Below the pieces are notes generated by a model, which saw only the letters and a program-made list of their open reading frames with translations, was not told the origin of the DNA and did not search any database. Below, piece by piece: positions 23,936-26,965 of a stretch of 64,000 nucleotides of DNA; position 1 is the first letter of the stretch; each line of letters begins with the position of its first letter. The stretch comes from an uncultured Bryobacterales bacterium (lineage in GTDB: Bacteria > Acidobacteriota > Terriglobia > Bryobacterales > UBA6623): contig CATOTH010000005.1 in assembly GCA_951813065.1 (NCBI GenBank), positions 558,001 through 622,000 of the forward strand, written 5' to 3'. The position numbers were made by a program, and so were the translations under genes.

Positions 23936-24739
23936 CTATTCGGGCTTCGCCTCCGCGGGCTGCGACCCGCTGTCGGTACCCTCGGCGATCGGCTCGCCGG
24001 GCTTGTCGGCCTCGGGCTCCGGCACCGCCGCAGGTTCGGCTTCGGCAGCCGCCGCGGGTTCGGGCGCAGCTTCGGACTCGCCCTCGGCAGCAGCTTCCGG
24101 CTCCAGCGCAGCTTCGGGCGCGGCTTCGGCAGCAGCTTCCGGCTCCGGCGCAGTGGCAGAGTCCGCTTCGCCAACAGCCACGGGTTCCGCGCTAGCCGCC
24201 TCCGGGCTCTCGGGAGACAGTTCCCCCGCTGCCTGCGCCACGGCAATCTCGGAGGCACCGGCAACCGCGAATGGCTCCTCCTCCACGGCGGCCTCCTCGG
24301 ACGAGCCGGCAGCCCCTTCGAGTTCTAGCAGGGCTTCGACCACATCGGAGTCCTCGTCCACCTCCTCGCCTGGCGCGACCGGGACCGGGGCTCCGGGAGC
24401 GCTGGCCTCTGGAGCGGCCGCTTCCTCGACCACCTCCTCCGGCGCCTCGACCACCGCCGCTGGTTCAGGGGCCGGCGCGCCGTTCTTGGCCTCGTCCGCG
24501 ACGCGCTCGTCGAAGTGCCTGACCAAGCGCTTCACCGTGTCCGACAGCTGGGCCCCGACGCTTACCCAGTAGTCGATCCTGTCGCGCTTCAGCACGACCT
24601 CGATCGGATCCGGGCGGGGGTTGTAGTGCCCCACGATCTCAATATTCCGACTGTCCCGCGCACGGCGACTGTCGATCACCACCACCCGGTAGCTGGGTCT
24701 CTTCTTGGCCCCAGTCCGGGACAGGCGTATTGCAACCAT
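23936..24739 (-). CDS. rpsP: 30S ribosomal protein S16 with a long low-complexity C-terminal extension
   Basis: 267 residues, where bS16 is usually 80-95. The ATG at 24739 follows a GGAGG Shine-Dalgarno; a start at 24757 would add six residues encoded by that site. Residues 1-85 are normal S16 (AIRLSRTGAKKRPSYRVVV; YNPRP; GAQLSDTV). From about residue 95 to the end the protein is almost only Ala, Glu, Pro, Ser and Val, in short AAEAEPEA-like repeats, strongly acidic and probably disordered. The last residues are SGSQPAEAKPE. The extension is in frame and ends cleanly 54 nt before khpA. Confidence 0.93.
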   Translation of the reverse strand: MVAIRLSRTGAKKRPSYRVVVIDSRRARDSRNIEIVGHYNPRPDPIEVVLKRDRIDYWVSVGAQLSDTVKRLVRHFDERVADEAKNGAPAPEPAAVVEAPEEVVEEAAAPEASAPGAPVPVAPGEEVDEDSDVVEALLELEGAAGSSEEAAVEEEPFAVAGASEIAVAQAAGELSPESPEAASAEPVAVGEADSATAPEPEAAAEAAPEAALEPEAAAEGESEAAPEPAAAAEAEPAAVPEPEADKPGEPIAEGTDSGSQPAEAKPE

Positions 24740-24768
24740 TGCTTCCTCCGAAATCAATCCTCAAGGCA

Positions 24769-26190: not shown

Positions 26191-26315
26191 CGGACTCGAG
26201 TGATGGGACCGCGGACGGGTTACCGGGAAGCCCGGGCGGCACCGCCGAGATGTTCAGGGAGCCGGGGGACGCTGCAAGGCGTACGTGAATGTCCCCCTAT
26301 GCGAACACTTGCCCT

Positions 26316-26344
26316 ATTGTACGCCTCGGCGGTGCGACGGTCAA
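26316..26344 (-). promoter_or_regulatory. sigma-70 promoter of the ffh-rplS operon
   Basis: On the minus strand TTGACC (26344-26339) and TACAAT (26321-26316) are separated by exactly 17 nt. Transcription should begin near 26309 and leave a leader of about 120 nt before ffh. No SRP-RNA-like motif or riboswitch was recognised in that leader. Confidence 0.72.
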
Positions 26345-26446
26345 TCGAATTCCGGGAGCCGCACGCGGGCCGGACCTGACGCGCCGAACTGCTACAATCT
26401 CAGGCGCAAGGGGTGCGTGCGCTCGCTTGCGAGAAAGGGACACACG

Positions 26447-26965
26447 ATGAGCCAACTCTCACGACGCGCGGTCCTGCTGACCGGTGCCGTCGCAGCGGCC
26501 GCCGGATCGGCGCGCGCGGCACTCGCCGTCGGCGACGCGGCCCCGGATTTCACTCTTCCGGGGACCAACGGCATGGACGCCAAGCTATCCTCTTTCCGCG
26601 GCAAGAAGAATGTCGTCCTGGCATTCTTCCCCAAGGCCTTCACCGGCGGTTGAACACGCGAGATGAAGGGATATCAGGCTGATATCTCAAGCTTCACCGG
26701 CAGCGATTCCGTGGTATTCGGGATCAGCACGGACCCGCTGGACACCAACATCAAGTTCGCGGAGTCGCTGAACCTCGAGTTCGCCCTGCTGAGCGACGAG
26801 GACGGTGCCGTCGCCGAGATGTACGACGTGCTAAACCTCGAACGCATGATGGCGGGGCGCGCGACGTTCGTCGTCAGCAAGGACGGCAAGATCGCGCATG
26901 TCGAAACTGGCGGCGCGGCGGTGGATCCCGCCGGCGCGGCCGGCGCTTGCAGCAAGCTCCAGTAG
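26447..26965 (+). CDS. Tat-exported selenocysteine peroxiredoxin (UGA at residue 69)
   Basis: Two same-frame segments (26447-26650 and 26654-26965) are separated only by the TGA at 26651-26653. Together they make one 172-residue AhpC/TSA peroxiredoxin. The TGA falls exactly where the peroxidatic Cys belongs: [18 protein letters not shown], giving PxxxTxxU for the PxxxTxxC consensus. The rest is uninterrupted family sequence ([45 protein letters not shown]). The N-terminus is a twin-arginine signal ([16 protein letters not shown]...). An SD-like GAGAAAGGGA precedes the ATG at 26447, and TACAAT lies further up at about 26394. A Ser, Cys or sequencing-error TGA is the alternative. The hairpin just downstream supports selenocysteine. 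Confidence 0.82.
26654..26690 (+). promoter_or_regulatory. candidate bacterial SECIS hairpin
   Basis: Directly after the TGA, GATATCA (26670-26676) can pair with TGATATC (26680-26686), closing a GGC loop. GAGAT (26660-26664) can alternatively pair with ATCTC (26684-26688). The loop starts 23 nt after the UGA and its first base is G, both in line with known bacterial SECIS elements, which must lie within the coding region just after the UGA. Confidence 0.6.

Follow-up and report, generated by a model that had tools for sequence, protein, structure and literature searches.

Does a TGA codon that lies exactly where a peroxiredoxin should have its peroxidatic cysteine end the protein, or does it encode selenocysteine (Sec)? 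This question is raised by a locus in a window of 64,000 nucleotides (the whole stretch of DNA analysed here), in which positions 26447–26965 of the forward strand, translated with read-through, form a single frame of 172 codons with a TGA at 26651–26653 (residue 69) as its sole interruption. The earlier note had described one family-like frame split only by a TGA at the Cys of PxxxTxxC, and this description stands: the Pfam AhpC-TSA match runs across the TGA (residues 28–151, E 8.8e-35, 119.8 bits, cut-off 26), GC3 is 0.78 before the TGA and 0.84 after it, and the read-through protein ends in ACSKLQ followed by the stop. The gene is almost certainly that of a selenoprotein, the UGA at 26651 being read as Sec69, because the frame is intact, UGA and Cys codons interchange at the site, a SECIS hairpin covaries, the genome has the sel genes, and selection acts past the UGA. 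The features of the locus are as follows.

26433–26440, forward strand: possible ribosome-binding site GAAAGGGA, 6 nt 5′ of the ATG, as read from the sequence.
26447–26965, forward strand: complete gene for a predicted exported, AhpE-like selenoperoxiredoxin of 172 aa, with an ATG start, an internal UGA (predicted Sec69) and a TAG stop at 26963–26965.
26447–26518, forward strand: putative twin-arginine-type signal peptide (residues 1–24) with an AxA site, A22-R23-A24.
26651–26653, forward strand: TGA codon for predicted Sec69, the peroxidatic position of P62xxxT66xxU69.
26669–26687, forward strand: SECIS hairpin, from folding and comparison, with an 8-bp stem (26669–26676/26680–26687) and the loop GGC (26677–26679).
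26948–26950, forward strand: TGC for Cys168, candidate resolving cysteine and the only Cys 3′ of the Sec.

On the 5′ side and on the opposite strand lies what we take to be an ffh-rpsP-KH-rimM-trmD-rplS cluster, and on the 3′ side a convergent, presumed thiolase gene. The gene order around the peroxiredoxin gene is the same in the related genome G008, and in G014 the thiolase side is kept; the peroxiredoxin gene seems to form a unit by itself. A search of plasmids found no relative. In the place of rpsP, the product of the frame at 23936–24757 (reverse strand) is S16-like and carries a long C-terminal extension rich in Ala, Glu and Pro (273 aa in total).

As to the kind of protein, all 76 aligned members of the family match Pfam AhpC-TSA. 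In this alignment, Sec or Cys at residue 69 is conserved, Thr66 occurs in 73 members (Ser in the other three), Arg138 and Cys168 occur in all 76, and the peroxiredoxin Pro (P62 in the window protein) is kept in 59 and replaced in 17. The AlphaFold model (pLDDT 88.7) is confident save for the signal peptide. With Foldseek, its best PDB fold is AhpE of Mycobacterium tuberculosis (TM 0.81/0.91, 38% identity), with PrxQ/BCP also near, and AhpE entries are among the top phmmer matches. The mycobacterial protein (Rv2238c; PDB 1xvw, 4xih, 4x1u) thus provides the closest solved fold and shares the FFPxAFTG..C motif and the conserved Arg; it is a Cys-based, 1-Cys enzyme with no known signal peptide, whereas the window protein carries an export signal and combines the predicted Sec with an invariant Cys near its C-terminus. 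That second Cys is found at Sec+97 to +101 in all 115 acidobacterial family members; the outgroup proteins (L061, L063–L070) lack it, so the C-terminal Cys marks the acidobacterial branch.

Could such a selenoprotein be chiefly a thiol:disulfide oxidoreductase or a redox sensor, rather than a peroxidase? Weak matches of family members to the ResA and TlpA models, and the replaced Pro, would agree with this, but the family retains the active-site Thr (or Ser) and Arg of peroxiredoxins and lacks a UxxC motif, and the closest folds are AhpE and PrxQ/BCP. We therefore regard an oxidoreductase or sensor as improbable, and very probably the product has peroxidase activity.

The codon at the residue-69 site can be followed through many relatives, since matches occur in 80 of 100 related genomes at E 1e-25, and the family is present in 31 of 217 genomes of a wider sample of the phylum at E 1e-32. 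Among 115 acidobacterial homologues the codon is TGA in 103, TGC in 11, TGT in one and nothing else in any, so that relatives do have Cys or TGA at this position, the pattern that the earlier note had suggested looking for. A related species with an independent, single-contig assembly (G008, OX638379.1) has the same TGA. The family tree, the root and several forks of which are weak, requires eight changes between Sec and Cys, and Sec is the commonest state; this fits an ancestral Sec that would have been replaced repeatedly by Cys. Downstream of the TGA, dN/dS is about 0.21 against G008 and G014, i.e., there is purifying selection. These values were kept for L025 and L027 only; those for L026, L028 and L034 were dropped, as a one-codon deletion throws the ungapped comparison out of register.

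Copies in a distant acidobacterial group (f48; L135–L144) are 58–65% identical to the window protein and are placed with its family by the tree, which suggests that they may have been acquired by horizontal transfer.

The second piece of evidence is the hairpin. A hairpin with a G-first loop 23 nt past the TGA had been claimed, and it is indeed there: it begins 15 nt past the TGA, with a distance of 23 nt from UGA to loop and an MFE of −11.7 kcal/mol. The bacterial SECIS model has a loop of 3–9 nt, a stem of 4–16 bp, a G within the first two loop positions, a spacing of 16–37 nt and an MFE of −7.5 or below (PMC13188914), and the window hairpin, which was to be checked against such a model, falls within every one of these bounds (loop 3, stem 8, GGC, 23 nt, −11.7 kcal/mol). 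Folded singly, the window sequence does not stand out significantly from chance (z of −1.4 with 50 nt and −0.8 with 58 nt), and these weak scores are not relied on for the SECIS claim. Across 92 distinct TGA genes, the first base of the loop is G in every one, and the upper stem (five pairs) is fully formed in 78, where synonymous shuffling expects 1.6 (maximum 8 in 500 shuffles); it is paired in only 1 of 12 Cys homologues. The covariation score is 0.229 versus 0.123 for shuffled alignments (0 of 500 as high), and slid registers give 0.104 or less. Compensating pairs include UAU..GAU versus UAC..GGU, and also UUC..GGA, the Tyr/Phe codon shifting together with the Asp/Gly codon. RNAalifold recovered just the four top pairs from the alignment because the lower stem pairs in either of two registers, one of which has a bulged base. 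An Rfam scan of the window gave nothing at gathering thresholds, so no library model was applied to the SECIS.

A standard gene caller cuts the frame into two ORFs (26285–26653 and 26663–26965), as the earlier note had expected. Such a split is what a pseudogene would show, if an ordinary peroxiredoxin with Cys had received the TGA by nonsense mutation or by faulty assembly. However, nine-tenths of the homologues have TGA at this codon, as does a further gene of the source genome, purifying selection continues past it, and the hairpin is conserved and covaries; the pseudogene reading is refuted by this conservation, and we give it next to no credence. It is equally hard to believe in two separate polypeptides, the first ending at the TGA and the second begun anew from the ATG at 26663. 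An in-frame ATG does lie three codons 3′ of the TGA, but its Met is not conserved (other members have F, L, I, V or A), neither half would be a complete thioredoxin fold, and a restart accounts neither for the SECIS nor for the Cys codons that replace the TGA in some relatives. That UGA encodes another amino acid genome-wide, or is suppressed non-specifically, has a negligible probability, as nothing found favours it and, against it, the nearby rimM, trmD and KH-protein genes terminate with TGA as an ordinary stop, the sel system is complete, the alternative codons at the site are exclusively Cys and the hairpin decays in the Cys copies.

One Cys orthologue (TGC; L046, in G067) has kept its SECIS-like hairpin intact, its genome encodes SelB, and it is likely to be a recent change from Sec to Cys. 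Hairpins retained in this way are described for other former selenoprotein genes (PMC1794560).

Decoding of UGA as Sec is matched by the equipment of the source genome (G000), a 5.59-Mb assembly in 11 contigs that is 95.6% complete. Its closest named relatives are MAGs of Bryobacterales (Acidobacteriota), and the guess that this is an acidobacterial chromosome was thus correct. The search for selA, selB, selC and selD that had been proposed for the same genome yields all four: SelA (E 7.9e-123), SelB (a full-length match above the cut-off, E 6.4e-107), SelD (295.6 bits) and tRNA-Sec (selC; 72.3 bits, anticodon tca, i.e., UCA). In 100 genomes, SelB above the cut-off is found in 68 of 71 with a Sec copy versus 16 of 29 without (Fisher p 3e-6, uncorrected for relatedness). 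The three exceptions with a Sec copy are G020, where the SelB match is split over two contigs, G069 and G076; the last two perhaps reflect assembly gaps or a recent loss of the Sec system. The source genome also has a second copy of the selenoperoxiredoxin gene:

L005:1500-2010, equal to G000:C1:99533-100033, reverse strand: paralogue with 59% identity, its TGA at the equivalent residue, and without the RR motif.

Copies related to this paralogue occur in G004, G009 and G010. The source genome contains, in addition, two larger frames, deiodinase- or AhpC-like, that have an in-frame TGA in FFRSAxWUPxC (L008/L165, at G000:C6:320653-320967, and L164:207-1274, reverse strand), which are probably further selenoproteins.

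Where would the enzyme act? The N-terminus of the window protein has the twin-arginine motif SRRAVLL, an h-region and the AxA site, and TatC is present in the genome. By simple motif and hydropathy tests (no trained predictor), a hydrophobic N-terminal segment, i.e., an export signal, is found in 111 of 115 members; by a simple motif test, a Tat-like motif is found in 21 of 115, mainly within the genus of the source organism, and the remaining members look as if they carry general secretion signals. There is, in our judgement, a high probability that the window protein is exported, and the peroxiredoxin probably works outside the cytoplasm. The twin-arginine signal that had been pointed out is thus present, but calling export by this route unusual was an overstatement: E. 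coli formate dehydrogenase N (FdnG), an unrelated molybdoenzyme, is a Tat-exported selenoprotein, and the Tat-like motif occurs in just a minority of this family.

We infer from the sequence that Sec is incorporated in the cell, and the following mechanism is proposed. The UGA at 26651 would be decoded by Sec-tRNA(UCA), delivered by hairpin-bound SelB (hairpin 26669–26687), and the signal peptide would be cleaved near residue 24, giving the mature enzyme. Sec69, with Thr66 and Arg138 activating, would reduce a hydroperoxide and become a selenenic acid. Cys168 would then probably attack the selenenic acid of Sec69 to form a selenenylsulfide, which is the weakest step, and the selenenylsulfide would be reduced by an envelope protein, presumably thioredoxin-like or of DsbD type. 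Since the mycobacterial AhpE is a 1-Cys enzyme, it is conservation that argues for Cys168 as the resolving residue, and the chances that it has this role are about even. Rather more tentatively, and with somewhat less than even chances, the acidobacterial branch may be a distinct class of envelope selenoperoxidase, in which an AhpE-type enzyme has been made a two-residue Sec-Cys peroxidase by the invariant C-terminal Cys and which, in the window's genus, would be folded in the cytoplasm, exported by Tat and recycled outside by a thiol reductant.

The literature on Sec-containing TxxU peroxiredoxins (Prx, PF00578) goes back two decades (PMC1088965, PMC1794560, PMC2398784, PMC5029168, PMC13188914). 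The window protein shares with them the AhpC/TSA fold, the PxxxTxxU motif of the active site, a bacterial SECIS and the existence of Cys homologues. The published lists do not divide these proteins into subtypes; what sets the acidobacterial branch apart is its export signal and the invariant Cys at its C-terminal end. A Sec form of PrxU is described from Eubacterium acidaminophilum (reference 83 of PMC13188914). PrxU is likewise an AhpC/TSA peroxiredoxin, but of another subfamily: the window protein scores 48.5 bits with the PrxU model (NF040737), below its cut-off of 270, and does not score above the cut-off with any NCBIfam equivalog. We know of no export signal in PrxU. As Sec TxxU peroxiredoxins are known, and as FdnG is another selenoenzyme using Tat, the window gene is classed with the known kind of Sec-peroxiredoxin, with export and the C-terminal Cys as two uncommon features. 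Acidobacteriota have already been listed with selenoproteins (PMC1794560, PMC12013277); in the main texts of the literature no description of the exported acidobacterial branch was found, and the family may already be listed in supplementary tables of selenoproteomes.

The locus adds a well-supported selenoprotein family across Acidobacteriota, one that is not named by curated NCBIfam models and is split by standard callers, and it suggests that these bacteria use selenium to defend themselves against peroxides outside the cytoplasm. The replacements of Sec by Cys, one of them with a leftover SECIS, form a natural series that provides material on why Sec is kept or lost. Outside the Acidobacteriota, a peroxiredoxin in a Gemmatimonadota MAG from acid mine drainage (L070) has a TGA within the motif RTGGU and a good hairpin of another kind (8-nt loop, −14.1 kcal/mol); there is no Cys after its Sec, and it is maybe a one-residue selenoperoxiredoxin.
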